Source: Paludibacteraceae bacterium
GTDB lineage: Bacteria > Bacteroidota > Bacteroidia > Bacteroidales > Paludibacteraceae
Assembly: GCA_017450435.1 (NCBI GenBank)
Contig: JAFSTO010000043.1
Location: 1 to 64,000, forward strand
Reading direction: 5' to 3'
DNA length: 64,000 nucleotides
The number at the start of each line of letters is the position of its first letter. Positions within the stretch are counted from its first letter, which is position 1. The notes beneath the pieces are model-generated. The model had not been told where the DNA came from. It saw only the letters and a program-made list of their open reading frames with translations, and searched no databases. Of this stretch, positions 3,371 to 49,332 are shown in pieces. A program made the translations under genes and the position numbers.

Positions 3371-3416
3371 AAAGTACGAAGGATAAATGTACGATGTACG
3401 AAGTATTTACGAAGGT
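3371..3416. repeat. TACGAAGTACGAA-type micro-repeat
   Basis: The stretch repeats GTACGAAG, GTACGATGTACGAAG and TTACGAAGG. The same words occur at 16480-16500 and at the end of fabD (28627-28656), so it belongs to one of the dispersed micro-repeat families of this window. The rest of the gap to 3532 holds nothing I can support. Confidence 0.55.
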
Positions 3417-3532
3417 AATTAAAAGGATAGCGTCTGCTATCTGGTCAGTCGTCTTTCCATGACCATCCGACATGATGGCACATGTGAGAGCATTTTCTCC
3501 GTTACGTGTCGATTATCGCTTCCCTTTTTTCA

Positions 3533-3882
3533 TCAGTCGATTACAACGGCAGCGCCGGAGACAGAAATCATAATCATGCCGTTGGCTTGGCCCATTGTTT
3601 CATAGCCAAAGCTAACTCCAACGATGGCATTAGCGCCCAATTTCTCGGCGCGAGAGCGCATTTCTTTCTGCGCTGTTTCGCGTCCTTCGAGCATAGCCTT
3701 TTCGTAACTGTCAGTACGTCCTCCGAAGAAATCACGAAGTGAAGCGCCAAAATCTTTGAGGAAGTTCTTATCTCGCATAGCTCGAACGATTACTACATTC
3801 CGAAAATGACCTCTCCGGAAACAAGACCTTTGTACTCCTTAATGGTGTGCCCTTCAATAATTGGTGTGGTGGTAACTATCAT
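3533..3882 (-). pseudogene. YbjQ/DUF74-family gene with a frameshift
   Basis: Two adjacent frames together give a complete YbjQ-family (heavy-metal-binding domain) protein. The first, starting at the ATG at 3882, reads MIVTTTPIIEGHTIKEYKGL then VSGEVIFGM and stops. The second continues VVIVRAMRDKNFLKDFGASL and FFGGRTDSYEKAMLEGRETA, then LGANAIVGVSFGYETMG. The family is about 105 residues and forms a homopentamer; its function is unclear. The join near 3790-3800 needs a shift of one base. Both halves are well conserved, so this is either a recent mutation or a sequence error. The 81-residue ORF alone (3533-3778) lacks the conserved N-terminal strands. Confidence 0.75.
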
Positions 3883-3918
3883 ATTATTGTGCTTTAGTTT
3901 TTCTACAAAACAATCGAA

Positions 3919-4575
3919 TCATACGATGCCTCTAACCCTCTCTACTAATCGTTTGCCGAGTTCGAAGGCCTTTTGCATGTCCTTTGGGAAGCGGTTGGCA
4001 CGGATGTCGGCACGGACGGCTTCGTCCACAGCTGTCTCATAACGGCTGTAGTTATTGAACTGATATGTCTCATGCGAACAAAGCATTTCCGGCTGACAGC
4101 CGAAGATGCCGAGCACGCGGCAGTTCTCGCCGAGGATGGTATTGTAATGCAGCGGCTCCATCAATATCTCAGGCGCGTTCATCGTATAGATTGCAGCGCA
4201 CTGTATTTTCTTGCGGATTTTCGGTGCCGAGTAATCGCAGTAATTGACCGCCGGGAAGACAAGCCGTTCGACGAACGAACGCGTCATGCCGGTCGGGAAC
4301 GAGTCATACACCGGCGAACCGATAACAAGAACATCGGCGTTGACGGCTTTCTCCAAGACGGGTTGTAACTCGTCTTTAATAGCGCAAAGACCATTGACCT
4401 TATTGCCCTTCAACTTACAAGCGAAACAAGATTTGCAGCCCTGATAATTAAACTCATAGAGGTGAATGAGCTCGGTTTCTGCTCCGGCTTCTTGTGCGCC
4501 CTTTATGGCACTCTCTAACATTTGCGCGGTATTTTTGTTCTTGCGCGGAGAACCATTTATAAAAATCGCTTTCAT
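3919..4575 (-). CDS. NADPH-dependent FMN reductase / flavodoxin-family oxidoreductase
   Basis: This 218-residue protein has a flavodoxin fold of the iron-sulfur flavoprotein/WrbA-like group. The FMN-phosphate loop is at the N-terminus (FINGSPRKNKNTAQML, residues 5-20). The motif CKSCFACK (about 47-54) is the cysteine-rich stretch typical of this family. ADVLVIGSPVYDSFPTGMTR (about 79-98) is the second flavin-contact segment. It probably reduces flavin or small substrates with NAD(P)H in the cytoplasm. The C-terminal half is less conserved. It lies downstream of the lipoprotein gene on the same strand, 118 bp away, and could be cotranscribed. Confidence 0.8.
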   Translation of the reverse strand: MKAIFINGSPRKNKNTAQMLESAIKGAQEAGAETELIHLYEFNYQGCKSCFACKLKGNKVNGLCAIKDELQPVLEKAVNADVLVIGSPVYDSFPTGMTRSFVERLVFPAVNYCDYSAPKIRKKIQCAAIYTMNAPEILMEPLHYNTILGENCRVLGIFGCQPEMLCSHETYQFNNYSRYETAVDEAVRADIRANRFPKDMQKAFELGKRLVERVRGIV

Positions 4576-4693
4576 ATTTCATGAGTACAATGCCCAACGT
4601 AAATTATTGCCTTAATTGGGAGAGTAAATAAAAATAAAAACAATGTTGCAACAATCTTGTGCATAAGTTTCAAGTTGTTAACTTTTTCGTAGT

Positions 4694-5509
4694 TTACATT
4701 TTGATAGTTATTGATTGTTCGCCGGCTGCGGTGGTTGCGGTCGGAACGAATGTGATGATGCGTCCTGTGGTGGCGTGGTAATACTTGATGGTAACCGTCT
4801 CTCCTGTTTTGCGTCCAAAGACAGTGAAACGAACGGGCGAGAACCACAGTTCATCGCCTATCACGCCCGTGCCTCTGCACTCGTTGTCAACAAAAGCAGC
4901 GATGATGTCCCCTTTGGCAGGCTTGATATTGCTATCCTCTAAGGGAAGGCACGCAACTGAGAGAGTCATTACTACGGGATATGAGGCTGCACCAAGTGAG
5001 AAGGGAGGGATGAACGGTTCGTCTAAGCCGTAGATGTCCCCGCCTAAATTGAGCGGTGTTGGTATGTCGTATGTAAAGAGTTGGTGTAGAGATTCGCTGT
5101 AATAACGCAACTTGCATTGCAGATTGTTTTCTGCTTCGTTACCATAAATTTTGAGGATAAATTCTCCCTTATTACCGCTACTCTCTTCCCCTACATGAAC
5201 AGCCGGTGCAGCCAGTCCGCGAAGCTCATCGCCGATAAAGACTGCCATGCGGTCGTCAGGTTGTACAACGGGTTTGAGAATGTCCTCCAATTGGATAAAG
5301 AGGATAGCCCAGCTTTCGTACTTTGACGGGTCCGGTTCCTGCCAATCAGGACGGGCTTCCGTGCCTTCATAACTCACTTGCCACAACGGGGCGGAAATAG
5401 ATGTGTCCTCGGGTTCAATTACGGAATAATACTCCGCATTTTTATCACCTTTTTTACAAGCCGCTATAGAGAGGGCAGCGAGCGTCAGAAAAATAATATG
5501 TTTTTTCAT
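4694..5509 (-). CDS. Surface lipoprotein with two copies of a domain shared with the giant protein
   Basis: This 271-residue protein has a lipoprotein signal peptide ending in the lipobox IAAC (Cys18), so it should be anchored to the outer membrane. The mature part holds two related beta-rich repeats. The first, about residues 85-155, has DDRMAVFIGDELRGLAA and then FILKIYGNE. The second, about 200-265, has GDIIAAFVDNECRGTG and then FTVFGRKTGETVTIKYYH. The same pattern (D-x-I-x-A-F-x-x-x-x-x-C-x-G) occurs three to four times near the C-terminus of the giant protein encoded upstream. Shared domains and adjacency suggest the two proteins work together at the surface. No enzymatic motif is seen. 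Confidence 0.7.
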   Translation of the reverse strand: MKKHIIFLTLAALSIAACKKGDKNAEYYSVIEPEDTSISAPLWQVSYEGTEARPDWQEPDPSKYESWAILFIQLEDILKPVVQPDDRMAVFIGDELRGLAAPAVHVGEESSGNKGEFILKIYGNEAENNLQCKLRYYSESLHQLFTYDIPTPLNLGGDIYGLDEPFIPPFSLGAASYPVVMTLSVACLPLEDSNIKPAKGDIIAAFVDNECRGTGVIGDELWFSPVRFTVFGRKTGETVTIKYYHATTGRIITFVPTATTAAGEQSITIKM

Positions 5510-5525
5510 TGATTTAATATTATTT

Positions 5526-5559
5526 CGTTATCCCGATATAGTGCTATATCGGGATAACG
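5526..5559. promoter_or_regulatory. Perfect 16-bp inverted repeat
   Basis: The arms CGTTATCCCGATATAG and CTATATCGGGATAACG are perfectly complementary around a 2-bp centre. The site lies between the giant gene's stop (5579) and the lipoprotein start (5509). There is no T-run on either side, so it is not a standard terminator. An RNA hairpin stabilising the upstream message, or a protein-binding site, are the likeliest roles. Confidence 0.7.
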
Positions 5560-5578
5560 GGTTGTCGTAATATCGAGT

Positions 5579-16441: not shown

Positions 16442-16479
16442 ATATTTTTGTTTTTTTATTGCTTAATGTTAATTAAGAA

Positions 16480-16600
16480 AAGTACGAAGTGAACAAGTAC
16501 CGACCTTGTTTCACCCAAATGTAGAGACACGGGGTCCCCGCGAACATCGTGAAGTGGGGTGTCAGACGGTATTGTGTACCGTCTCTCAAAACACTCAACC
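16480..16600. repeat. Intergenic repeat element E1 with ACGGTA hairpin
   Basis: After a short TACGAAG-type repeat, the gap holds ACCTTGTTTCACCCAAATG, a GGTCCCCGCGAACATCGTG block, then GTGTCAGACGGTA and TACCGTCTCTCAA. The last two form an 8-bp hairpin at 16564-16584 (AGACGGTA/TACCGTCT). Related pieces recur at 17640-17735, 25111-25165 and 28660-28710, so this is a dispersed intergenic element of REP or small-MITE type. Confidence 0.7.
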
Positions 16601-16876
16601 ACGTGGCTGTTCGTCAATGGAAGTTTTTTGTTGATTATCGCCATCATCACCTTCAATGAGCAACACGATCCAAACAAGCAATGGTGAGACAAAGAACGAT
16701 AACAGCACCCAACAGACAGGGTCGCGGTGTCTGTTCTTTGCCATGCGATAAGCTATGTGTATGCGAATGAGATACACTAATCCTAATCCCAAGGCGATAG
16801 CCAAAAGGATTAGAAGAACTGTCCAAAATTGTGGGTCAACAACCAAGCGAGTGTCAAGTAGGATTGTGCTTGTCAT
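16595..16876 (-). CDS. Small membrane protein with two TM helices
   Basis: This 93-residue protein has two hydrophobic segments: about residues 17-37 ([20 protein letters not shown]) and about 55-73 ([20 protein letters not shown]). A positively charged loop ([15 protein letters not shown]) lies between them and an acidic tail follows, giving a hairpin in the inner membrane. Its start overlaps the stop of the upstream gene by 4 bp (ATGA type), so the two are translationally coupled. The second segment resembles short hypothetical membrane proteins that follow phage-shock-like or transport genes. I do not recognise a specific family. Confidence 0.7.
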
Positions 16877-17744: not shown

Positions 17745-20700
17745 TTATGTGTCGAAGAAACCTAATTGGTTGATAGCGGTGAGCATCTTGCCCACATATT
17801 CGCTGTCAGGTTCTGACCAACGAAAACCGAGACGCAGAAGGACTTGCGAGGTGTACTCGTTGTCACGTTCAACTTGCTTTGAAGGCTGTCCGTTTGCCAT
17901 GTTCTGGTAGGCGAGCATAGTGGTCAGCAGGGCGGCTTTCTTCGGATCCGAAGCGGCTTGCTGTACCAACGTGCCAAACTCCATAGACTCGACAAACCGT
18001 ATATCCGTACCGATTTTCTTCAACTCGTTGAGCACATCGCCCAACAAACGTGTGTGGTTGTTGTAAGGCTGGAAGACCGTACAATCGTCAGGAGTCGTAG
18101 CCAAGAGAACGATAGCCCTCGCTGTCTCGTTGATAGGCGAGAACTCGGTAGGCGAGTCGTACAGCTCATAGGGGCAGCAGCCTAACATATTGAAGATCTT
18201 GATACGTCCCATATAGCTGTTGGTGGAGAAATTGACTTGGAACTCGCCGTCATAACTGCGTGCCGCGAGATTGCCCACACGCATAATCTTTGCCTTGAGC
18301 CCCTTATGCGCCACAGCATCGAGGATAAGTCGGTCGGCAAGGAACTTGGAGTGCATGTACTGGTTGCCCAGATATTGGCCGAAATAGATATTCCGCTCCG
18401 TCAGGACAGGTGCCGGCTCATTATTCCCAATCCATATACCTCCGGTAGAGGTAGTGGATACATGTACGAGCCGCGCACCGGTATTGAGACAGAAGTCCAC
18501 GCAGCGTTGTGCACCGCCGATATTCACATCTTCAATATCCGTGCCCTTGGAGAAATGCTTCACGTTCGCCGCGCAGTTAATGACGGTGGTGATATTTACC
18601 ATTTGGTCATTTACCATTTGGTCATTTATTTGGGCATTTAGGCATTGGGATAAATCGCTTGTGACATCGCCGTTGACGACGAACAAACGCTTGCCGAAGA
18701 GGTCGTCGAAACGACGGCTGAAATAGTAGAACAGTAAGTTACGCACACGGCGCTCGGCATCGTGCCGGTCCTTGCCGCGCACAAGGCAGGTGATGGTCTT
18801 GGTGTCAGTGTCGATGAGTTCCTTGAGCACATGGATACCGAGGAAGCCTGTAGCACCGGTAAGAAGAACATGACCCAAGCCATTTACCATTTGGTCATTT
18901 ACCATTTGGTCATTTACCATTTGGTCATTTATTTGGTCATTTAGCATTTGGGCATTTAGGAAGGTGTCCAAGGTGTTCTTTTGGAGCAGTGCGTTGATGG
19001 GTTCGTAATCGTAATCCGTAATGACCGTATCGTGTGCATCGTGGTCATTTACCATTTGGTCATTTACCATTTGGTCATTTACCATCTGCGCCAACAGCCG
19101 GGGCGTAGGGTGGGAGAAGAGGTCGGCATACGCGATGTGCTGTCCGCCTTTCTCCGCCTCGATGATGACACGTGTCACCATGAGGGACGTGCCGCCCAAA
19201 TCGAAGAAGTTGTCCGTTGCACCTACTTTCTCCAGGCTCAAAACATTCGCAAAGATGTCTGCAAACAGTTTTTCGGTCTCGTTGGCGGGTGCTACGTAGG
19301 CATGGTCGTCCGCCTGAATCTTCGGAGCCGGCAGTGCTTTGCGGTTCACTTTCTGGTTCTGGTTAAGCGGAATAGCGTCAATCTGCATCGTAGCAGCCGG
19401 CACCATGTATGGCGGTTTGGTCTCGCGGATGAAAGCATTGAGCGCCTGCACATCTATCTTCTCGTCGCTGACGATATATGCCGCGATAAATTTACCGCCG
19501 TTGGGGTAATCGAACGCCTGCACGGTAGCATCCTTGATACCGGGGAACTGACGTATCACCGTCTCCACCTCTTTCAGTTCGATACGGAACCCGCGGATCT
19601 TGACCTGTCCGTCTCGCCGTCCTACAAACTGAATGTTGCCGTCCGGCAGATAGCGAACGATGTCACCGGTGCTATAGCAACGCACATTTGTACATTGTAC
19701 ATCGTCAAATTGTACATCCACAAAGGTTTCTTTTGTCTTTTCGGGCAGGTTGAGGTAACCGCGTCCTACTTGCGGCCCACTGACCCATAACTCGCCTGCG
19801 GCACCGAGCGGCAGACGCCGGCCGTCGGTATCCATGACAAACAGTTGCAGATTATCCAGCGGTTTGCCGATAGGTATATGCTGCTCGTATTCGGAGAGTG
19901 CATACGTGGTGGTGAAGATTGTACACTCGGTCGGGCCATAGCCGTTGTGCATCTTGTAGTTGCTTGGCGGCGTGAGAGCAGCCAGTGCTTCACCGCCCAC
20001 TGACAGATGTTTCAAACTATGGCACTCCACATTCGTAGCGAACTGGAATCCAATCTGTGTGGTCATGAACGAGTGTGTCACCCCCTCTTGGTCGAAATAC
20101 CGTCCCAACTCCGGCAGGTTCAGTCGCATGTCTTCGGGGATGATGCAAACCGCAGCACCGCATGTCAACGCCGGATACATATCCATCATATTGGCATCGA
20201 AACCGAACGAAGCATACGCCGCCACTTTATCGCCGGCATGCAGGTCGTAATACCGGTGGTACCAATGGCAGAACGCCACAAGGTTGCGATGCTCCAGCAT
20301 CACGCCCTTCGGCACGCCCGTAGAACCGGAAGTGTAGAGGAGAATAAATAAATCTGACGGCTGAATGCTGATTGCTGAATGCTTTTGACTTGCGACTTTC
20401 GACTTTTGACTCAGCTCCTCCAGTTCTTTCTCTGTCAGCAGCATGCAGCTGTTGCCGTCCTGCTGCATATACTCCAGTCGCTCGGCGGGATAACTCGGGT
20501 CGAGCGGCATGTACGCGCAACCGGTTTTGAGCACGGAGAGAGCGCCGATAGTCATCCATTCGGAGCGTTCCACTTTGATGGCAATGACATTCGTTGTCGG
20601 GTGCAGGCAGGTGGCTATACGGTCGGTTATCTCATCCAGCTCGCGATAGGTGATTCGTTTGTCGCGGAAGATGACTGCAATGTTATCCGGCGTCTTCGCC

Positions 20701-23700
20701 ACCTGCGTTTTGAAGAGCGAGAGTATGGTCTGCGTGTCATCATAGTCCACGTGGGTCTCGTTGAAACTATCCAGCAGCGCTGTCTGTTGCTCGTCCATCA
20801 GCGAGACGGAGCGCAAAGCGGCTTTGGTATCCTTGGCGAACGCACTCACGGCATTGCTAACCGATTGCGCAAGGCTCTGCATCATCTCGCGGCTGTAACG
20901 GCCGTTGTCGTATTCAATCGCCACGGAAGGTTTGCCATCCACCTCCACGATATAGAACGCAATCTTGAACTTCGGCACGTTCAGTTCCATGTTCTCCGTC
21001 TCCATCGCCTGTCCCTTCACCTTGTATTCGGAAAGGACGCCGAGCTGGTAGGCGTACATGATTTCTGCCGTCAGGTCGTAGTCGGCGGCTATCTGTGCAA
21101 ACGGATAGTTCTCATGCGAGAGAGTCTGCTCGAATTTCCTGCCTGTCTCCCGAACGAACTCCTCCACGCTCTGCGTGCCTATCTTGCTGCTCAACGCAAG
21201 CGTGTTCACCATCATGCCGATAGTGTTCGCCATCTTGAGGTTGCTACGGCCGTTGGAGATAGTGGTGATACAGAGGTCGTCGTTGTTTGCGAAGCGCGCG
21301 AGCGTGTAGAATACTGCCGCGAGTGTTGCGCCGGCGGCTGTCACGCCTGCGTTCTTCGCCACCTGCTCGGCAGCCTGCAGATTCATTGGCGCATAGACCT
21401 GCCCTATCTCGCCGTCTTTGGGGTTGGTCAGGTCCGCCGGTAGCTCCGTCACGCCCTCCACTTGAGCCAATTGCGAATGGAAGAACTCTTTGGCTGCTGC
21501 GTGTTCCTCACTGTTCTCTGCGGCTTGTTCCTCAGCCACAAACTCGGCATAAGAGCACATTTCCGGTTCGATGGTCCCGCCGTTCAGTAGTGCGCACAAC
21601 TCATTGAAGAACACATCATACGAAGCGCCGTCGCATACCAAATGGTGCATGTCACAATAGAGATACAGAGCCTTTTCGGTCCGGACGATGCAGAACCGGA
21701 AGAGTTGGTCTTTCGAGAGATTGAAGGGGCGGACAAATTCCGCACGATAGGCATCCAACTGCGCCTCTTTCATGTCAATCGTCTCCAGCCTCAGCTCTTG
21801 GCCTTTGTCTATCAGTTGTTCCACTCCTGTCTCGTTCGTCCGGAAATGTACGAAAAGCTCAGGGTGGTTTCGTACCACTTGTTCTACTGCCGCACGCAGT
21901 TCCTCCGCATGGACGCCCTCCGGTAATCGCGCGCGCATGGGAATATTATACAGTGTCGAAGCGGGATTCTTCATGCATTCGAAATAGACGCCTGTCTGCG
22001 CGTGGCTGAGAGGGAATGAGATTGCTTCGCTCAAAGCAGAAGGAGTCTTTTGACTTTCGACTTTTGACTTTCGACTGCCATCCATCATCGACTTCAATAT
22101 CTCGTTTTCGATAAGCTGGATGTTCGCCCCTTTGATAAGCAGTTTGGCATCAAGTTGCACGCCGAAACGCTTATAGACCTGCGTTGCCAGTTTGATAGCG
22201 GAGATGGAACTCAGTCCCACGTAACGGAGATCGGTCATGATTCCGAAATCGCTGTTTCCCACGATGCCGGCGACCATGTCACGCAACTGCTCCTCCAATA
22301 CATTGAGCGGTGCTGCCTCCTTGGTACTTTGTCCTTCATCACTTTGTACCTTCGGTTCCGGCAGTGCCCGTTTGTTCACTTTCTGGTTCTGGTTGAGCGG
22401 AATAGCATCTATCTGCATCGTGACAGTTGGTACCATATAAGGCGGTTTCCGGTCCATGATAAAGGCATTGAGTGCTTGAATATCAATCTGCCGGTCAGAA
22501 ACTATGTATGCTGCGATGAACTTACCGCCGCCTTCCGGAAAATCAAACGCCTGCACGGTGGCATCCTTTATACCCTCAAACTGGCGTATAACCGCCTCTA
22601 CCTCTTTGAGTTCAATACGGAAACCGCGAATCTTGACTTGTCCGTCTTTGCGTCCGACGAACTCAATTGCTCCGTCCTGACGATAGCGCACGATGTCGCC
22701 CGTTCTATAGCAACGAACGGATGTACAAGGGGACAATGTACAATGTACAAAGGATTCTGCTGTTCTTTCGGGTTGGTTGAGATAACCGATACCTACCTGC
22801 GGTCCGGCTATGAGCAGCTCGCCTGCTGCACCCCAAGGAACACGCTTGCCGTTCTTATTGACAATAAAGAGTTCGGCTGTGTCGTTCGGATAACCGATAG
22901 GGATATTCGGCTCGTTCTTCTCCACCCAGAAACTGGATACATAGACAGTGCACTCCGTCGGACCGTAGCAGTTAAGCAGTTTGTAAGAAGGCGGAGTGAG
23001 GCTCATCATTTTTTCGCCACCTGTTCCTAAATACTGCAAGCCGTGTATATCCGGATAGTTGATTACCAGTTGGGTAGCCATCTGGGTGGTCATGAAGACA
23101 TGTGTGATGGATTCCTTGACAAAATAGTTGTAAAGCCCTTCCAAATCAAAACGGATATCGTCTCCGATGACATGTATCGCACAGCCCGCCACCATACATC
23201 CCCATAGATCCATCATATATGCGTCAAAGCCGTAGCCGGCATACGTAGCGTACCGGCTCTCGGGCGTCAGACCTATATGATGAGTATGGTAATCGCAGAA
23301 GGTGAGAATATTCTGTTCGCTCAGCATCACACCTTTTGGTGTGCCGGTCGTGCCTGACGTATAAAGTAGCATGAAGGCATCTCCGCCTTCATATTTTGCG
23401 GCATCCTGACGCATGAACTCCAGCCGGTCGGCAGGGTAGGAACTATCCAGCGGCATGGCAGTAAAGCCTGCTTTGGCGATAGCGAGCGGCACAATCACCA
23501 TCTGTTCGTTCCGCGGCACGGAATAACCAATCACATGCTCGCCGCAATGTGAAATAGTGGTTATCGGTGATTGGTTATTGGCGAATTGTTCTGCCAGTTC
23601 ATCACTAAGCTGATCCACTTCGGAATATGTCAATCGCACATCGCCGGCTACTACGCATGTTGCGTCCGGCTGTTCGGAAACGTGTTGTTTGAAGCGTGCG

Positions 23701-25058
23701 ATGAGTGAGCTTCCTTTGCTATTCCGGCATTTCGATATTTCGGGATTCCGAAGGTCTAACCACTTGACTTGTTCCTCGTCGCAATAGTCGATGTCGCTCA
23801 CATGCTCCGCCGTTAGCATTGAGCGGATGATGGTGCTATAGGTCTTAGCCAACTCCTGCATGAACGCGTCGGAGTAGTCGGCTTCGCTATAACTCAGTTT
23901 GAGCGAATACGTCCCGTCTGACTCAAATAATTCTGCGCATAGTTTCCATCCCGGTGTGGGTTGGCGCAAGTCAATAAAAGGCACCAACTGACCATCCAGA
24001 TGCAGACCGCGTTTGTCAGCCAATACGGCTCCCTGATAAACGAACATCACCTGATTGTTCAGTCCCAAGTCGCGTACCGCATCAGGGTATGCATAGTATT
24101 GGTATTTCTGTGTCTGTTGCAGTTGCGCGTCCATTGCATCGAAGAGTTCGGCGAGAGAGGAGTCTGCTTTCGTCTGCGCAAACACAGGAAGAGTATGAAC
24201 CATCATCGTGACAGAACCTAATGTCCTTCTGTCGCTACGTCCCCAGAAAGCGGTGCAGTAGGAGGCTTTCTCTTCAGCGGAGTAGGCGGCAAGAAGTTGC
24301 GCCCAAGCCGATTGCATGATAATACTCTCTTTAGTATTAAAGCGCTTCTCGATAGATTGTATCTCATCTTTGCTGACGGACAAGGGGTAGTGTTTATATC
24401 TGATAACTGAAGACTGATTGCTGAGGGCTAACTCCGATTGTGGAATAGGCAGACTGTCTGTATCGGCTGCGTCTGAAAACTCACGAGCGTACCATTCGCG
24501 TGCTTCGTTCATCAGCGTCTTGTCAGCACGTTGGACGGCCTCAGCTTCGGCGATAGCGGCGCCATCGAGCATCTCGACTGCGGCTTTCTTGCCACTATAG
24601 AGCCGCTCGATGTCACGCAACAGAACCGTTATTGAGAATCCGTCCGCCAGAACATGGTGAAGATTAAGATAAAGATATTTACCATTTGGACATTTACCAT
24701 TTACCATTTGGTAGATTTCAGCCCGATACAGTCTCTCCCCGTGTATGTCCATTGTGCGGGCGAAGGTTTTTTGAACATCTGCCCACTCAGTCTCCGATAC
24801 TTGTTTTACTTCCACTATAGGCTTTTCTTCCTCATGATATGAGAGAACCGGGGTGAGGTTTTCCTCGTCAGGTTCTATATGCCCCAATATATACGGATGG
24901 GCGCACAAAGCGTCAAAGACAGCCTGTTGCAGCCGCTCGATATCCGTGTTTTCCGGTAGGGGAAACAGTACGGGGTTTTGATAATTGGTCATATCGCTGA
25001 CCGATGTCTCGCAGGCATAGTAAACGCCTAATTGCGCTTGGCTTAACGGACTTTTCAT
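17745..25058 (-). CDS. Two-module NRPS with terminal thioester reductase (C-A-T-C-A-T-R)
   Basis: Domains in order: condensation 1 (about 1-430, HHVLADG); adenylation 1 (about 465-895, YTSGTTGTPKG near 567, RGFRIELKEVE, NQNQKVNKRALP); carrier 1 (VGLSSISA near 950); condensation 2 (about 1018-1450, HHLVCDG near 1140); adenylation 2 (YTSGSTGVPKG near 1577, NQNQKVNRKALP); carrier 2 (FFDLGGTSL near 1957); reductase (GATGFLG near 2070, YMHSK near 2236). Core residues are present throughout, so it should be active. The Lys2-like reductase should release the peptide as an aldehyde, which may cyclise to a pyrazinone. Condensation 1 at the start suggests N-acylation. Aligning core positions by eye gives specificity codes DAMMGGCVYK and DAMMSGGIFK. 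Several short repeats (QMVND, KSKVES, DVQCT types) are inserted in frame in linkers. Confidence 0.93.
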   Translation of the reverse strand: MKSPLSQAQLGVYYACETSVSDMTNYQNPVLFPLPENTDIERLQQAVFDALCAHPYILGHIEPDEENLTPVLSYHEEEKPIVEVKQVSETEWADVQKTFARTMDIHGERLYRAEIYQMVNGKCPNGKYLYLNLHHVLADGFSITVLLRDIERLYSGKKAAVEMLDGAAIAEAEAVQRADKTLMNEAREWYAREFSDAADTDSLPIPQSELALSNQSSVIRYKHYPLSVSKDEIQSIEKRFNTKESIIMQSAWAQLLAAYSAEEKASYCTAFWGRSDRRTLGSVTMMVHTLPVFAQTKADSSLAELFDAMDAQLQQTQKYQYYAYPDAVRDLGLNNQVMFVYQGAVLADKRGLHLDGQLVPFIDLRQPTPGWKLCAELFESDGTYSLKLSYSEADYSDAFMQELAKTYSTIIRSMLTAEHVSDIDYCDEEQVKWLDLRNPEISKCRNSKGSSLIARFKQHVSEQPDATCVVAGDVRLTYSEVDQLSDELAEQFANNQSPITTISHCGEHVIGYSVPRNEQMVIVPLAIAKAGFTAMPLDSSYPADRLEFMRQDAAKYEGGDAFMLLYTSGTTGTPKGVMLSEQNILTFCDYHTHHIGLTPESRYATYAGYGFDAYMMDLWGCMVAGCAIHVIGDDIRFDLEGLYNYFVKESITHVFMTTQMATQLVINYPDIHGLQYLGTGGEKMMSLTPPSYKLLNCYGPTECTVYVSSFWVEKNEPNIPIGYPNDTAELFIVNKNGKRVPWGAAGELLIAGPQVGIGYLNQPERTAESFVHCTLSPCTSVRCYRTGDIVRYRQDGAIEFVGRKDGQVKIRGFRIELKEVEAVIRQFEGIKDATVQAFDFPEGGGKFIAAYIVSDRQIDIQALNAFIMDRKPPYMVPTVTMQIDAIPLNQNQKVNKRALPEPKVQSDEGQSTKEAAPLNVLEEQLRDMVAGIVGNSDFGIMTDLRYVGLSSISAIKLATQVYKRFGVQLDAKLLIKGANIQLIENEILKSMMDGSRKSKVESQKTPSALSEAISFPLSHAQTGVYFECMKNPASTLYNIPMRARLPEGVHAEELRAAVEQVVRNHPELFVHFRTNETGVEQLIDKGQELRLETIDMKEAQLDAYRAEFVRPFNLSKDQLFRFCIVRTEKALYLYCDMHHLVCDGASYDVFFNELCALLNGGTIEPEMCSYAEFVAEEQAAENSEEHAAAKEFFHSQLAQVEGVTELPADLTNPKDGEIGQVYAPMNLQAAEQVAKNAGVTAAGATLAAVFYTLARFANNDDLCITTISNGRSNLKMANTIGMMVNTLALSSKIGTQSVEEFVRETGRKFEQTLSHENYPFAQIAADYDLTAEIMYAYQLGVLSEYKVKGQAMETENMELNVPKFKIAFYIVEVDGKPSVAIEYDNGRYSREMMQSLAQSVSNAVSAFAKDTKAALRSVSLMDEQQTALLDSFNETHVDYDDTQTILSLFKTQVAKTPDNIAVIFRDKRITYRELDEITDRIATCLHPTTNVIAIKVERSEWMTIGALSVLKTGCAYMPLDPSYPAERLEYMQQDGNSCMLLTEKELEELSQKSKVASQKHSAISIQPSDLFILLYTSGSTGVPKGVMLEHRNLVAFCHWYHRYYDLHAGDKVAAYASFGFDANMMDMYPALTCGAAVCIIPEDMRLNLPELGRYFDQEGVTHSFMTTQIGFQFATNVECHSLKHLSVGGEALAALTPPSNYKMHNGYGPTECTIFTTTYALSEYEQHIPIGKPLDNLQLFVMDTDGRRLPLGAAGELWVSGPQVGRGYLNLPEKTKETFVDVQFDDVQCTNVRCYSTGDIVRYLPDGNIQFVGRRDGQVKIRGFRIELKEVETVIRQFPGIKDATVQAFDYPNGGKFIAAYIVSDEKIDVQALNAFIRETKPPYMVPAATMQIDAIPLNQNQKVNRKALPAPKIQADDHAYVAPANETEKLFADIFANVLSLEKVGATDNFFDLGGTSLMVTRVIIEAEKGGQHIAYADLFSHPTPRLLAQMVNDQMVNDQMVNDHDAHDTVITDYDYEPINALLQKNTLDTFLNAQMLNDQINDQMVNDQMVNDQMVNGLGHVLLTGATGFLGIHVLKELIDTDTKTITCLVRGKDRHDAERRVRNLLFYYFSRRFDDLFGKRLFVVNGDVTSDLSQCLNAQINDQMVNDQMVNITTVINCAANVKHFSKGTDIEDVNIGGAQRCVDFCLNTGARLVHVSTTSTGGIWIGNNEPAPVLTERNIYFGQYLGNQYMHSKFLADRLILDAVAHKGLKAKIMRVGNLAARSYDGEFQVNFSTNSYMGRIKIFNMLGCCPYELYDSPTEFSPINETARAIVLLATTPDDCTVFQPYNNHTRLLGDVLNELKKIGTDIRFVESMEFGTLVQQAASDPKKAALLTTMLAYQNMANGQPSKQVERDNEYTSQVLLRLGFRWSEPDSEYVGKMLTAINQLGFFDT
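18588..18648. repeat. QMVND micro-repeat inside the NRPS reductase domain
   Basis: The 15-bp unit CATTTACCATTTGGT is repeated and followed by diverged CATTTATTTGGG units. In the reading frame of the NRPS it encodes about LNAQINDQMVNDQMVN, placed between GDVTSDLSQ and TTVINCAAN, that is, in a surface loop of the Rossmann fold. Confidence 0.8.
18880..18960. repeat. QMVND micro-repeat before the NRPS reductase domain
   Basis: Three exact 15-bp units plus diverged units encode AQMLNDQINDQMVND and further QMVN units, just upstream of the GATGFLG motif. This is part of the carrier-to-reductase linker. Confidence 0.85.
19041..19088. repeat. QMVND micro-repeat behind NRPS carrier 2
   Basis: Three units of the 15-bp repeat encode QMVNDQMVNDQMVND at about residues 1991-2006, just after the second carrier domain. 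It is in frame. Confidence 0.85.
19686..19717. repeat. TTGTACA-type micro-repeat in NRPS adenylation 2
   Basis: TTGTACATTGTACATCGTC and AATTGTACATCC encode VDVQFDDVQCTNV, in the loop before RCYSTGDIVRY. The same place in adenylation 1 (22721-22750) holds another copy of this family. Confidence 0.7.
20361..20413. repeat. Two adjoining micro-repeats in NRPS adenylation 2
   Basis: CTGAATGCTGATTGCTGAATG is followed directly by CTTTTGACTTGCGACTTTCG and CTTTTGACT. In the NRPS frame this gives SQKSKVASQK then HSAISIQPS, inserted just before the LLYTSGSTG core motif. Two different repeat families sit side by side. Confidence 0.75.
22046..22077. repeat. KSKVES micro-repeat between NRPS modules
   Basis: TCTTTTGACTTTCGACTTTT and GACTTTCGACT encode SRKSKVESQK, in the linker between carrier 1 and condensation 2. 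Confidence 0.75.
22721..22750. repeat. TTGTACA-type micro-repeat in NRPS adenylation 1
   Basis: GATGTACAAGGGGACAATG and TACAATGTACAA encode HCTLSPCTSV, in the loop just before RCYRTGDIVRY. It occupies the equivalent loop to 19686-19717 in adenylation 2. Confidence 0.65.
23557..23583. repeat. NQSPIT micro-repeat in NRPS adenylation 1
   Basis: GTGGTTATCGGTGATTGG and TTATTGGCG encode ANNQSPITTI near residue 495. It resembles the ATTGCTGATTGCTG-type families seen at 20361 and 24401. Confidence 0.5.
24675..24715. repeat. QMVN micro-repeat in NRPS condensation 1
   Basis: TATTTACCATTTGGACATTT and ACCATTTACCATTTGGT encode YQMVNGKCPNGKY, at about residues 115-128, just before the HHVLADG motif. It is a shorter, diverged copy of the 15-bp repeat found three times near the reductase. 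Confidence 0.7.
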
Positions 25059-27530: not shown

Positions 27531-27549
27531 ATTGATGCATAAATATGTG

Positions 27550-27581
27550 CAAAAATACATATTTTTTTCCGATTATACAAG
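27550..27581 (-). promoter_or_regulatory. Promoter of the phosphatase-STAS-NRPS run
   Basis: On the minus strand CTTG (27578-27581), 20 bp, then TATTTTTG (27550-27557) match the Bacteroidota sigma consensus TTTG-N19/20-TAnnTTTG. Transcription would start a few bases before the ATG at 27530, giving a very short leader. Confidence 0.65.
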
Positions 27582-27757: not shown

Positions 27758-28654
27758 ATGAAAAAAGCATATATCTTTCCCGGGCAAGGTGCGCAGTTTG
27801 CAGGTATGGGTAAGGACTTGTATGACAACTGTGGTATAGCACATGATTTATTTGTTAAAGCCGATGATATACTTGGTTTTAAGATAACCGATGTGATGTT
27901 TGGCGGCACTGATGAAGACCTACGTCGTACTGATGTTACGCAACCTGCAGTATATCTCCACTCTGTTATATCATATCTGACGGCTGTTGAGCGCGGGTTG
28001 TCCAAGCCGGATATGGTGGCGGGACATTCGCTGGGCGAGTTTTCCGCCTTAGTAGCAGCCGGCGCACTTGATTTTGAGAGTGGTCTGCGTTTGGTCAGTG
28101 CACGTGCTCATGCCATGCAGGAAGCCTGCGAACTGCAACGCGGAACGATGGCTGCAGTGCTGAAGATGGAAGACAAACAGGTGGAACAGGCATGTGAGAG
28201 TATCTGTGATGATGTGGTTGTTGCTGCCAACTATAACAGTCCGGGACAGGTGGTCATAAGCGGCACCGTCAGTGGTGTAGAACGTGCGACAGAGGCTCTG
28301 AAGGTAATGGGTGGTAAGCGCATCGTTCCGCTAAGTGTAGGAGGCGCTTTTCATTCGCCACTGATGCAGCCGGCGGCAGAGAAGCTGGAAAAAGCCATCA
28401 GAAACACACAATTTAATGAGCCAAAATGTTCAATATATCAGAACGTAAACGCTTTGCCTCAGACTGATCCGGAGAGGATAGCCGAGAATCTTATCAGGCA
28501 ACTTACCTCACCGGTCAGATGGACGCAGACGGTCAAAAATATGCTGGCAGACGGAGCTGCGGAATTTATAGAATTCGGACCGGGACAAGTGCTTTGCGGC
28601 CTCGTTAAGAAAATTGCGGGTGAGGCCAAGTACGAAGTGACCAAGTACGAATGA
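27758..28654 (+). CDS. fabD: Malonyl-CoA:ACP transacylase
   Basis: This 298-residue cytoplasmic enzyme transfers malonyl groups from CoA to acyl carrier protein to start fatty acid elongation. The N-terminal IFPGQGAQFAGMGKDLY is the classic FabD start. The nucleophile motif GHSLGEFSAL (Ser near residue 91) and the catalytic His in GGAFHSPLM (near 201) are both present. The end of the protein, GEAKYEVTKYE, is encoded by a TACGAAGTGACC-type micro-repeat (28627-28656) and is unlike other FabD tails. It is divergent from the phosphatase gene. Although it lies near the NRPS, it is a housekeeping gene and not evidence of a polyketide pathway. Confidence 0.95.
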   Translation: MKKAYIFPGQGAQFAGMGKDLYDNCGIAHDLFVKADDILGFKITDVMFGGTDEDLRRTDVTQPAVYLHSVISYLTAVERGLSKPDMVAGHSLGEFSALVAAGALDFESGLRLVSARAHAMQEACELQRGTMAAVLKMEDKQVEQACESICDDVVVAANYNSPGQVVISGTVSGVERATEALKVMGGKRIVPLSVGGAFHSPLMQPAAEKLEKAIRNTQFNEPKCSIYQNVNALPQTDPERIAENLIRQLTSPVRWTQTVKNMLADGAAEFIEFGPGQVLCGLVKKIAGEAKYEVTKYE

Positions 28655-28656
28655 CA
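28627..28656. repeat. KYEVT micro-repeat at the end of fabD
   Basis: AAGTACGAAGTGACCAAGTAC and GAATGAC form a tandem repeat that encodes the last residues and stop of FabD. The protein's normal end has been extended or replaced by it. Confidence 0.7.
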
Positions 28657-30509: not shown

Positions 30510-30547
30510 AAGTGACAAAGTGACAAAGTGACAATGTACAAGGTGAC
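30510..30547. repeat. AAGTGAC micro-repeat after aspS
   Basis: AAGTGACAAAGTGACAAAGTG then ACAATGTACAAGGTGAC is a tandem repeat starting two bases after the aspS stop. It joins the AAGTGAC and TGTACAA families and parallels the repeat at the end of fabD. Confidence 0.65.
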
Positions 30548-35923: not shown

Positions 35924-35940
35924 AGTGATATTTATTTAGT

Positions 35941-35979
35941 TATATGGAGTATCTAGAATATCTAGAGTATTTAGAGTGT
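35941..35979. repeat. TAGAGTATCTAGA micro-repeat
   Basis: GGAGTATCTAGAATATCTAG then AGTATTTAGAGTGTCTATAG fills the gap between two genes. Similar TTAGAG-word repeats lie at 62893-62975 and 63940-63990. Confidence 0.6.
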
Positions 35980-37521
35980 CTATAGTTTTTCAAAGTAGGG
36001 AAGGCGGGAGAGCGGCACCTCTATGGTGTAGGTCTTTCCGCCTTTGTATTTGCGTCCTTGTTCGTCGCGCCACGTGCCTTTGGGCAGAACGACTTTGCGG
36101 CTCAAGGCGGGAGTGACAACCGGAGTAACCAAATACTTGTCGCCAAGCATGAATTGGTCTTTCACGTCTGCCAGTCCCTGATGCGGGAACTGATACTCCA
36201 TCGGGCGCACTATCGGTTCGCCTGTTGTGGCTGCCTTACGCGCATATTGCATAATATATGGTGCAAAGTCTGCGTGAAGTTTAGCCATGTTTTTCACAAT
36301 AGCAAGGTTCTCTTTAGAGAGAATTCTCCATGGCGCGACAGAGAACTGCATCATAGGCATCAGAGCGTGCACTTGTGCCGAACGGATAATATGAGCCTGA
36401 TCGAACTTGTCTTCGTCGATGTTCAAGAATGAGGTAAACTGTCCTCCGCCAACCATATCCGGACATGCGAAGGCATAGCCAAGCAAGCCTGCTGTGCACA
36501 TCTGCGGAATAAGCGACTGCACAGCCTCCCAACTATAGTCTTTGTCCCCGAGACGCTGCACAAGAGGCCTGCCGCCTAACTTCCAACATGCGCGATATTC
36601 ATTGACGGGAAATTCCAAGCCAATCTTCGCCCATGATGTGGTGTGGTCAACGTTGGTGGCACTGTGATCGTATGCCATCCAGGGAGCTGAGGCGTAGCAG
36701 TTGTTATCGCCGGCATCGAACTTGAATCCGTCAATACCATACTCTGCTTGTGCGTTTCGAAGAACATCAATGAAGTATTTGGCAGCCTCGGGATTGGTAA
36801 GGTCATAACATGCTGAGTAGCCGTTCCACCAGTTTAGCACGGCAGTGCCGCCGTCGGGTGACTTGAGCAGATAACCTTTATCGGCAAGAGCACGTGCTTC
36901 CGGCGAATCCGGACTGACAAACGGACATATCCACACCATCACTTTGAAGCCCATTTGATGCAACTCGTCAATCATCGCTTTGGCGTCAGGGAATCGCTCA
37001 GCCTTGAAGGAGAAGTTTCCGTAATATCTTTGCCAGTTGTCGTCAATCATCAGCACTCCGGCAGGAAAACCGTTGTCAATGATAGCGTGTGCATAGCGCA
37101 GGATATCCTCCTGGTTCTGGTTGTACATCAGTTCTATCCACGTGTTATACTGCGGTCGAGTGAAGAATAGCGAGTCAGGCAGTTGTCCGTCGGCTGGGAA
37201 ATATTGTGCCTGTGCCGCGATGTAAGCTTCGCGCAAGGTAGTACCGGCTTTGACGCGCTCCATCGGCACGGAGGTCTCTATTCCGCCAAGCTTGGCGGAA
37301 AACGAGAATGCGTTGTCCGACCACATATACTCGCCGTCTGACGAAAGGAAGAGCGGTACCAACTGGTTGTTGGCATCTTCGGTCATCAGATTGAAGGTGC
37401 GAAAATCTGTGTAAGGCTGTTCATGTCCGAGTCCCACTGCAGCGCCCCACCACCGGCTCTGAGCCGTAAGGACAAAGCTAAGTGGTATGATTGACGATAT
37501 GAGAAATATAATGCGTTTCAT
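35980..37521 (-). CDS. Glycoside hydrolase family 31 enzyme
   Basis: This 513-residue protein has a signal peptide (IIFLISSIIPLSFVLTAQS) and a short N-terminal beta domain. The GH31 TIM barrel is marked by GVLMIDDNWQRYYGNFSF (about 155-172), GFKVMVWICPFVSPDSPE and the nucleophile motif GIDGFKFDAGD (about 240-250). Later barrel parts include PWMAYDHSATNVDH and CPDMVGGG. A C-terminal beta sandwich ends the protein. GH31 enzymes are mostly alpha-glucosidases, alpha-xylosidases or alpha-galactosidases, and the substrate here cannot be read. No lipobox is seen, so it is probably periplasmic. It is shorter than most family members. Confidence 0.87.
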   Translation of the reverse strand: MKRIIFLISSIIPLSFVLTAQSRWWGAAVGLGHEQPYTDFRTFNLMTEDANNQLVPLFLSSDGEYMWSDNAFSFSAKLGGIETSVPMERVKAGTTLREAYIAAQAQYFPADGQLPDSLFFTRPQYNTWIELMYNQNQEDILRYAHAIIDNGFPAGVLMIDDNWQRYYGNFSFKAERFPDAKAMIDELHQMGFKVMVWICPFVSPDSPEARALADKGYLLKSPDGGTAVLNWWNGYSACYDLTNPEAAKYFIDVLRNAQAEYGIDGFKFDAGDNNCYASAPWMAYDHSATNVDHTTSWAKIGLEFPVNEYRACWKLGGRPLVQRLGDKDYSWEAVQSLIPQMCTAGLLGYAFACPDMVGGGQFTSFLNIDEDKFDQAHIIRSAQVHALMPMMQFSVAPWRILSKENLAIVKNMAKLHADFAPYIMQYARKAATTGEPIVRPMEYQFPHQGLADVKDQFMLGDKYLVTPVVTPALSRKVVLPKGTWRDEQGRKYKGGKTYTIEVPLSRLPYFEKL

Positions 37522-37566
37522 TATAGGAAAGCGTTACGGGATTACGAAATGACGGTATTACGTTTA

Positions 37567-38967: not shown

Positions 38968-39092
38968 GGTTAAGAAAAAATAACAGGTGCCGATGTGGAA
39001 GCGATGCGCCTCCGCATCGGCACCTTCAATCAACATTGATTAAGCTTAATTGTGTTGTGTTTTGTCAAGAAATACAAATAAATTGTTTGAAC

Positions 39093-39878: not shown

Positions 39879-39938
39879 AATTTTAAGTTTTAATTGGTTA
39901 ATATTGAATGTTGATTGGTTGTTGTCTGTTTCGTTGGT

Positions 39939-41651: not shown

Positions 41652-41710
41652 AGTCTATTAAAATTTAAATCCTTAATTCTATAAAACTTTTAAAATTCAG
41701 ACCTCATCTA

Positions 41711-44713: not shown

Positions 44714-44813
44714 GGTTAATTTATTTAGGGGTTGATAGAATTCTTATTGAGAATAAATAGTCGTTGATTATCTGCAGAACAAGAGTTGTTGAAGATAACA
44801 TTTTGTCGTATGC

Positions 44814-46757: not shown

Positions 46758-47058
46758 CGCTGCTGTGTTTTTTATGGTTTTGTTTTGGGCTGGGCGGTAT
46801 CGGAAAAAGGTACGATTTTGCGCTACCGCTTTTTTGTGCGTATAATTTTTCTGTTTCAATAGTGTTCAAACGGCGTTTAAAGGGTGTTTAAGGGGGCTTT
46901 GTAGAAGACTTAGAGGACTTAGAAATTGAAATCGTACGATTTTGCGCTACCGAGTGATTTTTTTGGGGGGGCGGTGGGTGGTGTGGTGCCGAATGGCATT
47001 CGGCGTAATTCGAAGAATATTTTTTTTGGGGGGGGACGACGGGAGTCGTTCCCTACTA
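46758..47058. other. Long intergenic region upstream of the GH36-like gene
   Basis: About 300 bp hold no gene. A 19-bp direct repeat (GTACGATTTTGCGCTACCG) lies at 46810-46828 and 46934-46952, 124 bp apart. A micro-repeat of TTAGAGGACTTAGA type lies at 46906-46930. G-tracts of seven to eight residues occur near 46966-46972 and 47027-47035, and a GCCGAATGGCATTCGGC inverted repeat near 46990-47006. The repeats could serve as operators for the locus. Confidence 0.55.
46810..46952. repeat. 19-bp direct repeat pair upstream of the GH36-like gene
   Basis: GTACGATTTTGCGCTACCG occurs identically at 46810-46828 and 46934-46952 in the upstream region of the sugar-utilisation locus. Placement suggests a regulator-binding site pair. 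Confidence 0.65.
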
Positions 47059-48168: not shown

Positions 48169-48190
48169 GGTATTCACATTTTTACGTGTG

Positions 48191-48222
48191 CAAAATTACA
48201 ATATTTTCAATGTATTAACAAG
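48191..48222 (-). promoter_or_regulatory. Promoter of the amidohydrolase gene
   Basis: On the minus strand CTTG (48219-48222), 20 bp, then TAATTTTG (48191-48198) match the Bacteroidota promoter. It lies 23 bp before the ATG at 48168. Confidence 0.7.
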
Positions 48223-48355
48223 AAACGCAATATGCTTTATAGCATGTTTTGAAACATTTGCATGTAATATATAGATAATAAGTGCGTTATAATTTGCAAA
48301 ATCGTCTTTTTCGGCATTTCGTAATGTTTCGAAATGACGATTTGAAACGTTTTTC

Positions 48356-48386
48356 TTTCGTAATTTGAAAAAAAGTTGTAACTTTG
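48356..48386 (+). promoter_or_regulatory. Promoter of the DeoR-type regulator gene
   Basis: TTTC (48356-48359), 19 bp, then TAACTTTG (48379-48386) match the consensus with one change in the -33 box. The ATG at 48433 is 47 bp downstream. This faces away from the amidohydrolase promoter, so one operator could serve both. Confidence 0.65.
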
Positions 48387-48432
48387 CAGTGTTCTACTAT
48401 GTGTAAATTTGTCAGATAAACCATATTTAGTC

Positions 48433-49209
48433 ATGAACACATCGTCAGCCAAGGAGCGCCGTGCGCTTATCCTAAAAAAAATAGAGACTGAGCACGAGGT
48501 TATCGTCACCGATCTCAGTCGTGAAACAGGCATTTCGGAAGTAACAATCCGTAAAGATCTGACAATCCTTCAGCGTCGCAATCTTCTTGTCCGTACTCGT
48601 GGCGGCGCAATGCGCCGGCCGGTGGAGAACATTTCTGAGGACACTGCAATCAGCAAAAAGAGTATGTTCAACTTCAAGGAGAAAGAGCGGATAGGTGAAG
48701 AAGCTGCCAAGATGATACAGGACGGCGACCATATCATGCTCGACTCCGGCACCACAACGCTTGAGGTGGCGCGACATTTGGATAATTTCAACAACCTGCA
48801 TATATTGACAAACGCCATGAATATAGCCACCGAGCTGATGCGTTACAAGCGCTTCGAGGTGATGCTTCTCGGCGGCACGGTGCGTGTCAACTCACATTCG
48901 ATGGTGGGACCGATGGCACTGGCGAACCTGAAGAACTTCAGCGGCTATAAGTTGTTTCTCGGTGTGGACTCATTTTCGCTAAATGATGGTGTATCAACCC
49001 CCAGTTTGGAAGAGGCGTTGCTTAATCAGATGATGATACAGCAGGCGGAGACGGTGATAGCGGTGTTCGACTCATCGAAGTTCAACAAACGCAGTTATTC
49101 ACATGTGGCAGATGTCTCGCAATTGGATTGTATAATTACCGACAAGGCTATTCCGGTGGGAATGACCGGCAAACTCAGGCAAGCGGGAATTGAGGTAAGA
49201 GTAGTGTGA
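48433..49209 (+). CDS. DeoR/GlpR-family transcriptional regulator
   Basis: This 258-residue regulator has a DeoR N-terminal winged helix (ERRALILKKIETEHEVIVTD, then LSRETGISEVTIRKDLTIL, ending RTRGGAM). The C-terminal ribose-5-phosphate-isomerase-like sensor domain shows GDHIMLDSGTTTLEVARHL, VMLLGGTVRVNSHSMVGPMA and AVFDSSKF. Such regulators bind phosphorylated sugars and usually repress sugar-utilisation genes. A TTG at 48409 adds eight residues and overlaps the likely leader, so the ATG at 48433 is chosen. It is divergent from the amidohydrolase and close to the SusC/D locus, with a PfkB kinase in the same region, which fits phospho-sugar sensing. Confidence 0.9.
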   Translation: MNTSSAKERRALILKKIETEHEVIVTDLSRETGISEVTIRKDLTILQRRNLLVRTRGGAMRRPVENISEDTAISKKSMFNFKEKERIGEEAAKMIQDGDHIMLDSGTTTLEVARHLDNFNNLHILTNAMNIATELMRYKRFEVMLLGGTVRVNSHSMVGPMALANLKNFSGYKLFLGVDSFSLNDGVSTPSLEEALLNQMMIQQAETVIAVFDSSKFNKRSYSHVADVSQLDCIITDKAIPVGMTGKLRQAGIEVRVV

Positions 49210-49260
49210 ATGAATGTGCGGGCAGAGCCCTAATGTGGAATGTTGAAAATGCGAAACAAA

Positions 49261-49290
49261 AAGGCTTCGGACAACCCCGAAGCCTTTTTG
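49261..49290. terminator. Bidirectional terminator between convergent genes
   Basis: AAGGCTTCGG / CCGAAGCCTT form a 10-bp stem around a short loop, with A residues before and T residues after. It would stop transcription from both the regulator gene and the convergent secreted-protein gene. Confidence 0.9.
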
Positions 49291-49297
49291 TTTTATC

Positions 49298-49332
49298 TGA
49301 ACTTTGTACATTGTACATTGTTCCTTTGTACA
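49298..49332. repeat. TTTGTACATTG micro-repeat
   Basis: AACTTTGTACATTGTACATTG then TTCCTTTGTACATTGC repeats the same word family that is inserted in the NRPS and phosphatase genes, here in an intergenic gap just before a stop codon. Confidence 0.65.

Follow-up and report, generated by a model that had tools for sequence, protein, structure and literature searches.

Dispersed tandem heptamers with genome-specific vocabularies in a genus of Paludibacteraceae, and their possible spread by ectopic copying

Short tandem arrays, most of them built of 7-base words, are scattered through the genes and gaps of a 64,000-nucleotide stretch of DNA (here called the window) from a Paludibacteraceae bacterium (assembly GCA_017450435.1, contig JAFSTO010000043.1, positions 1 to 64,000), and arrays of the same kind recur across its genus. 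In these genomes period 7 dominates, unlinked places within a genome draw on a shared vocabulary of words, composite words are dispersed, and orthologous protein loops hold different words in different species. This evidence calls for a passage of information from one unlinked place of the genome to another. We propose ectopic copying of pieces of dispersed arrays, with template switching of the replicating strand as the probable route, followed by reshaping through local slippage and, within genes, through selection for an intact frame. We hold this explanation with roughly even confidence.

Tandem word arrays in the window

The window has a guanine plus cytosine (GC) content of 48% and belongs to a genome of 2.65 Mb. 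An earlier note on this DNA had described several families of short tandem words, and these families are real: Tandem Repeats Finder (TRF) places arrays on or close to the majority of the listed positions, namely those starting at 3387 (3387-3405), 19688, 20360, 22047, 22721, 26195 (26195-26209), 28626, 30510, 35947, 46902 and 49304 (Table 1). Further arrays of the same kind start at 18594, 18881, 19042, 24677 and 25661. The places listed at 16480, 24401 and 62893 are weak and absent from the TRF rows, and near 63940 the only hit has a period of 27. Two longer words that the note had given as recurrent each occur once in the window, the exact 16-mer AAGTCAAAAGTCGAAA at 22055 on the minus strand and ATTGCTGAATG at 20371; the words at 24401 are degenerate. 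The placement of the arrays was described correctly. They lie in frame in the non-ribosomal peptide synthetase (NRPS) gene and the phosphatase gene and at the end of FabD, one stands right behind the stop codon of an aspartyl-tRNA synthetase (AspRS)-type gene, and the array at 20360 brings two families side by side, which read CATTCAG and AAGTCRA on the coding strand.

These arrays are far more frequent than in shuffled sequence. Twenty order-3 Markov shuffles served as the control for the window (mismatches limited to 2 in 14; units of 1-3 bases, or 1-5 in some scripts, filtered out here and below): period 7 gives 6 arrays against a shuffle mean of 0.15 and period 15 gives 7 against 0.1, with smaller numbers at period 8 (2 against 0.15), period 14 (3 against 0.3) and period 9 (2 against 0.25). 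The NRPS gene has 13 array hits, summed over five periods such that one place may count repeatedly; 200 shuffles of its codon order average 0.05 hits and never exceed 1. Because these shuffles yield almost no arrays, codon usage does not explain those of the NRPS. Taken singly, the words of these families exceed expectation in the window by no more than about twofold (observed against expected: TACGAAG 18 and 8.1, TTGTACA 24 and 11.5, AAGTGAC 15 and 7.2, TTAGAG 19 and 15.7, GCTGAAT 8 and 9.5), and the signal therefore lies in their tandem arrangement.

Period and placement across the genus

Relatives were taken from the same genus or the same order as the source genome. The genus sample comprised stretches of seven genomes (1.5 Mb, including the window), with one Markov shuffle per locus. 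Period 7 stands out with 232 arrays against 2 in the shuffles, followed by periods 14 (153 against 7), 21 (113 against 3), 15 (61 against 4) and 8 (61 against 5); some arrays are counted again at the longer periods, and in genes an excess at multiples of three is no surprise. Periods 4 (5 against 2), 5 (6 against 6) and 13 (7 against 7) show little or no excess. A second sample of 80 loci from other Bacteroidota (1.24 Mb, some from isolates) holds 46 period-7 arrays against 6.5 in shuffles. As 7 is not a multiple of three, selection at the protein level is not the generator of the arrays.

Open reading frames (ORFs) of at least 100 amino acids, used here in place of annotated genes to divide coding from non-coding DNA, make up 90% of the sampled sequence and hold 225 of the 461 arrays (periods counted). 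Array density is thus about tenfold higher between ORFs (236 in about 147 kb) than within them (225 in 1363 kb). Between co-directed ORFs there is a modest bias towards the sense strand (80 vs 47, with 6 ties). Such a distribution would suit selection of binding sites, whereby a species-specific regulator recognises the words and these arise convergently wherever they are useful, and MacGregor proposed a translational regulator for the TAACTGA arrays discussed below. However, each genome has several unrelated words, arrays lie inside enzymes, including isoleucyl-tRNA synthetase (IleRS) and the end of gyrase A, one and the same place holds different words in relatives, and convergence does not give the 23-base composite described below. 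We consider binding-site selection very unlikely as the origin of the arrays.

Word vocabularies within and between genomes

To compare vocabularies, each period-7 array was represented by its majority word, arrays less than 200 bases apart were merged, giving 200 sites, only sites on different stretches were paired, and 7 word-sharing pairs with similar flanks were dropped. Sites within one genome share a word in 135 of 2862 pairs, compared with 168 of 16646 pairs between genomes, a 4.7-fold difference that none of 2000 permutations of the genome labels reached. When first words are compared, within-genome sharing is 103 of 2863 pairs (0.036), against 0.0033 (maximum 0.0070) for letter-permuted words; random genomic 7-mers share a word in 50 of 44850 pairs. 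The same holds when the 101 genic sites are set against the 99 intergenic ones (52 of 1479 pairs within a genome and 59 of 8348 between genomes; 0 of 500 permutations). Genic and intergenic sites draw on the same word pool.

Whole genomes give the same picture of vocabularies that differ by species. GTCRAAA tandems (pattern GTCRAAAGTCRAAAGTC) occur in 69 of 121 genomes, with 137 places in genome G137 and none in G113, and AAGGTGA tandems (pattern AAGGTGAAAGGTGAAAGG) occur in 50 of 121, with 46 places in G113 and none in G137; these counts include overlapping matches. Reversed controls for the two patterns give at most 5 and 7 places, respectively, in any genome. Each genome has several unrelated words.

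Species without arrays were sought as a contrast among ten genomes that lack both GTCRAAA and AAGGTGA tandems, one represented by a stretch with no readable bases and one by 4.6 kb. As 6 of the 9 readable genomes have period-7 arrays of other words, there is no on/off contrast to exploit.

Some vocabularies are more particular. An AACTATC tandem occurs at 41 places in G155 (L082, a Paludibacteraceae bacterium from red deer) and at 0-3 places in ten other named relatives; its reversed control is void, the reversed word being a rotation of the word itself. In genome G122, loci L149 and L197-L206 carry repeated words that are not in tandem, such as GCGGTCTTACAGGCGAAGCC and GACCGCTTTGCTGTAGGACC, and that recur between loci. 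Words related to these are found inside NRPS loops.

Dispersal of composite words

Composites, in which words are joined in a fixed order, are dispersed as well. Sixteen of 61 genomes contain the composite CAAATGGTAAATGNNCAAATG, which belongs to a 15-base unit combining two related words. In the source genome, CAAATGGTAAATG stands at 36 places spread over 11 contigs. Neither pattern has any match when reversed. A 23-mer of uneven make-up, AATAAATGACCAAATGGTAAATG, contains one truncated word. The source genome has it at 4 places, two in the NRPS and two on other contigs, and a search of 61 genomes gives 28 places, distributed over 13 of them (reversed, 0). Independent slippage hardly makes such a sequence; copying, or descent from a copied segment, can. 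Among 17 pieces compared from the 16 distinct CAAATGGTAAATG sites read in the source genome, matches of at least 40 bases cover the array words, except in the overlapping NRPS pieces and in one pair.

Phages or other transfer of array-bearing DNA might spread words between species, and the patchy occurrence of the words is what such transfer would produce. In a scan of the viral contigs of IMG/VR, GTCRAAA tandems were found in 42 stretches, several of them near-copies of one another, and GTGRAAG tandems in 5. However, letter-permuted control words were also present, in 36, 16 and 4 stretches, and the composite CAAATGGTAAATGNNCAAATGG was in no contig of the scan. Phage carriage of the composite was rejected on this last result, and transfer between species has little probability as the general explanation. 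The permuted words, one of three being nearly as common as GTCRAAA, also speak against a universal word dictionary, since no special word is favoured in IMG/VR.

The viral loci L333-L374 carry GTCRAAA arrays at GC contents of 0.35-0.69, some followed by inverted copies.

Different words in orthologous protein loops

Within proteins, the same loops hold different words in different species. The phosphatase loop at residues 447-464 is made of GTACAAT and GCACGAA words in the source genome, of AAGTACC in G017, of AAGTGACC and AAGGACY in G122 and of GAGTCAA-type words in G106; G028 and G140 have no words there. In the AlphaFold model residues 450-459 have a predicted local distance difference test score (pLDDT) below 50, like some other stretches, against a mean of 75.3. 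At the NRPS site at 20361, compared in nine genomes, the words are AAGTCRA and CATTCAG, ATACCGA, GCGGTCCTACA, AAATTTC or AAGGTGA, depending on the species, and six further genomes again differ in the words of their NRPS loops. At 19688 and 22721 most relatives (6 of 8) are without an array and are 21 and 15 bases shorter, respectively, both multiples of three.

Protein ends are similarly affected. The match to FabD ends at or before residue 293 of 298 in 78 of 80 related loci (the best 80 named relatives, mostly Bacteroidales, at identities of at most 68%). Read in frame, the composite gives rise in the source genome to MVN-type peptides in four proteins: a SusD-type protein, a GH130-type enzyme, an N-acylglucosamine epimerase and gyrase A, the last of these having the peptide at its end. 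Elsewhere it is in frame in a POR-type oxidoreductase of G069 and in the IleRS of G017.

The IleRS loop preceding AWTTTPWTLP was compared in 30 loci, those most like an insert-bearing query (83 genomes matched of 91 searched); because of this choice the share of inserts is not a genus-wide rate. Nineteen loci have no array, ten have tandem words of six vocabularies and one has a hairpin-type repeat. On the IleRS tree the eight loop states require at least 10 changes, and sister loci differ, as in G086 (MVN) and G098 (none) or G109 (AACGACC) and G103 (none). The states are barely more clustered on the tree than shuffled ones (10 changes vs a mean of 10.8; as low in 36 of 200 shuffles).

Repeats that we classed by eye as hairpin-type, for example CTCTCCTTAGGAGAGGGTCGGGGTGAGG, occur in frame in the IleRS loop of G064 (L265) and in NRPS loops of G014 (L163) and G140 (L156). 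These loops hold heptamer arrays in other species.

A model of ectopic copying and its alternatives

Each genome keeps its own small vocabulary of arrays, mostly of 7-base units, also of 8 and 9 bases and of higher-order units of 14/15 and 21/22. Under ectopic copying, a replicating or repaired strand would most probably switch template by means of a few matching bases and later switch back, and a piece of an array from elsewhere in the genome would thereby reach a new place or overwrite an array already there. Local slippage, seven bases at a time, would afterwards lengthen, shorten and mix the units. Gaps between genes have about half of the arrays, at ten times the density. Within genes, a copy would survive only by keeping the frame and bringing no stop codon, so that the copies would come to lie in tolerant loops and at protein ends. 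As the vocabulary of a species changes, the words in a loop would be replaced by others. The entry of hairpin-type repeats into the same loops would fit such a general copying process.

The earlier note had suggested that something inserts the words, and part of this suggestion stands. Families at unlinked places, sharing within genomes beyond chance and orthologues with other words or with none all agree with it, and amount to insertion, or replacement, of words drawn from a pool common to the genome. No discrete inserting element emerged, in that neither common ends nor target-site duplications were found by eye in the aligned sites; no enzyme came to light either, though no search aimed at one was made. 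The note had also named, as what would speak against insertion, a gradual evolution of the words in place by point change and slippage, and this is what we see at some sites. Four related species have the NRPS array at 22047 and differ there by nothing more than point changes, and the array at 18881 is a local 15-base expansion, in the source genome, of a seed kept in G017 and G028. Dispersal and local slippage thus both operate.

Several further observations, like these two sites, weigh against ectopic copying. Smaller excesses than that of period 7 are present in the genus sample at periods 6 (26 against 4), 9 (67 against 8), 10 (24 against 6), 11 (56 against 3) and 12 (43 against 4). Exact-word sharing within the source genome is weak (1 of 89 pairs); this genome adds little to the word test because few exact period-7 arrays were sampled there, and its case consequently rests on the composite. 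Sharing between different genomes (0.0083) exceeds that of permuted words (0.0015), which indicates that inheritance, transfer or a shared word preference contributes. A strong common letter pattern found by expectation maximization was abandoned, as it proved weak on cross-validation (3 of 7 genomes at no more than 3 of 200 permutations; other Bacteroidota, 47 of 500). No donor-recipient pair was caught among genomes of which the closest pair compared has 87.7% DNA identity, the closest to the source genome having 81.2%. Two of the 16 CAAATGGTAAATG sites of the source genome, in loci L229 (about 1490-1660) and L248 (about 1405-1532), form the exceptional pair noted above and share a 113-base segment of 78% identity that holds inverted copies of AAATGGTAAATG words, and for this reason they look like copies of a longer inverted-repeat segment. 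Lastly, an inverted partner lies within 150 bases of 3 of 232 genus arrays and 6 of 46 arrays of other Bacteroidota, compared with 0 of 278 control stretches. A minority of arrays could belong to an inverted-repeat element.

Local slippage alone, with chance seeds growing in place and a polymerase footprint that favours 7 bases, would account for the dominance of period 7, as reported for many bacteria, for the expanded seed at 18881 that relatives also have and for the IleRS AATTAAA arrays, which by eye adjoin similar host sequence. Independent seeds, however, do not yield the same exact words, or the uneven 23-base composite, at unlinked sites, and slippage seems distinctly unlikely to be sufficient.

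A dedicated writer of the words, such as an enzyme that carries a short template, or a mobile element that is non-autonomous and moved in trans, would explain the discrete vocabularies per genome and the composite word order kept in 13 to 16 of 61 genomes. The longer segment with inverted copies in L229 and L248 speaks somewhat for an element, and hairpin-type repeats enter the same loops. Set against this are the lack of common ends and target duplications in the aligned sites, the rarity of inverted partners, palindromes or terminal inverted repeats with common ends not being a general feature of the 232 genus arrays, and the many vocabularies in a single genome. We regard a writer or element as unlikely.

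On the boldest reading, bacteria of this genus would keep rewriting tolerant DNA all over the genome, loops of essential enzymes such as IleRS among it, through a dedicated or specially error-prone copying system with a small species-specific heptamer vocabulary, so that loops evolve by word replacement rather than by point mutation. This broader proposal is tentative and rather doubtful. The data suggest a route by which loops change through replacement of whole segments, even in an aminoacyl-tRNA synthetase. They also carry a warning that MVNDQMVN and other short peptide repeats of these proteins, instead of being domains, may be traces left by a process acting on the DNA.

Relation to known repeats

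Dispersed heptamers are already known. The TAACTGA repeats, of which one genome has 169 sets, occur in Beggiatoaceae, Cyanobacteria and some Bacteroidetes; other heptamers are found in some Bacteroidetes, repeats occur near protein ends, and no transmission mechanism was evident (MacGregor 2015, PMC4679880). They resemble the arrays described here in their 7-base unit and in the presence of one word at many unlinked, mostly intergenic places, some of them within reading frames, and here too the same word stands at many unlinked places. They differ in that they consist of one word, which in Beggiatoaceae lies mostly just upstream of start codons (PMC4679880), whereas this genus has several words per genome, species-specific sets and different words at orthologous loops. 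TAACTGA is not among the words of the stretches sampled from seven genomes and the 80 other loci, whole genomes not having been searched.

Mrazek (2007) is reported to have found 7-base units commonest in most genomes and to have proposed polymerase slippage, with a polymerase footprint suggested (PMC4679880). Our arrays agree with such heptanucleotide simple sequence repeats, being far above chance and enriched between genes, but slippage by itself leaves their shared vocabularies and composites unexplained. The GGGAATC and GGGGATT heptamers of Xanthomonas and Nostoc likewise have period 7, are dispersed and mainly intergenic, and vary in length between relatives, but they are G-rich and quadruplex-forming, and two Xanthomonas species have 90% of them in matching gaps between ORFs (PMC4692102); the arrays of this genus turn over fast and have many in-frame copies. 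Satellites derived from heptamers have also been mentioned (PMC6749651).

Rickettsia palindromic elements insert in frame into unrelated genes (PMC10969869), as the arrays do here, yet they are palindromes of about 150 bp with a conserved peptide, in contrast to short tandem words with a rare inverted partner. The tandem repeats of archaeal Borg elements are also A-enriched and fast-evolving, lie both between and within genes and form disordered protein stretches; they differ in being perfect, with units of 18-21 bases in the examples given, and unique to each locus, from which a local origin was concluded (PMC9879509). Here the result is the opposite, with words shared between loci.

Changing vocabularies and the repeated overwriting of loops look like a new form of this known kind of repeat. 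In the open-licence literature on heptamer repeats in Bacteroides, Bacteroidota, Bacteroidales and Bacteroidetes, species vocabularies and loop replacement are unreported in the titles and abstract openings among the matches listed. The parts of the cited papers used here leave open why 7-base repeats are favoured and how one word reaches scores of places. With many sequenced species, differing vocabularies and the same loops to compare, the spread of heptamers becomes a testable question.

Features of the window

The genes and arrays of the window are collected in Table 1.

Table 1. Array-bearing genes and tandem word arrays of the window
Feature	Position	Strand	Basis
NRPS-like gene with Condensation, AMP-binding, PP-binding and C-terminal NAD_binding_4 domains; bears most in-frame arrays	17745..25058	-	Pfam
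15-base composite array AAATGACCAAATGGT, reads NDQMVN in NAD_binding_4 domain	18594..18646	-	TRF, orthologues
15-base composite array; seed only in G017 and G028, other word in G122	18881..18958	-	TRF, orthologues
15-base composite array MVNDQMVNDQMVND, at and after end of PP-binding match	19042..19085	-	TRF, Pfam, orthologues
GTACAAT array; AAGTACC words in G017; 6 of 8 relatives without, 21 bases shorter	19688..19724	-	TRF, orthologues
Adjoining CATTCAG and AAGTCRA (coding strand); aligned relatives with other words	20360..20411	-	TRF, orthologues
AAGTCAA/AAGTCGA array; common to G017, G028 and G122 with point changes	22047..22076	-	TRF, orthologues
TTGTACA array; 6 of 8 relatives without, 15 bases shorter than window	22721..22750	-	TRF, orthologues
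Degenerate CTGATTG-type words	24401..24425	-	word counts, orthologues
AATGGTA array; G122 and G066 of equal length with other words	24677..24709	-	TRF, orthologues
SpoIIE-type phosphatase with HATPase_c_2 domain	25479..27560	-	Pfam
Short TAATGGT array near phosphatase C-terminus	25661..25679	-	TRF, orthologues
GTACAAT and GCACGAA words, phosphatase loop residues 447-464	26169..26222	-	orthologues, AlphaFold
FabD-type acyltransferase; last residues formed by array	27758..28654	+	Pfam, 80 related loci
AAGTACGAAGTGACC array at FabD end	28626..28655	+	TRF
AAGTGACA array directly behind stop codon of AspRS-type gene	30510..30547	+	TRF, Pfam
TACGAAG/ATGTACG words between ORFs	3371..3414	+	TRF
9-base GAGTATCTA-type array	35947..35986	+	TRF
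9-base TTAGAAGAC-type array	46902..46924	+	TRF
TTGTACA array between ORFs	49304..49335	+	TRF

The window also holds a repeat of a different kind. At 58153-58415 TRF reports about 6.8 copies of a 39-base unit containing the palindrome TTCAGCCAAGATTGGCTGAA, and this repeat overlaps the start of the ORF at 54883-58242.

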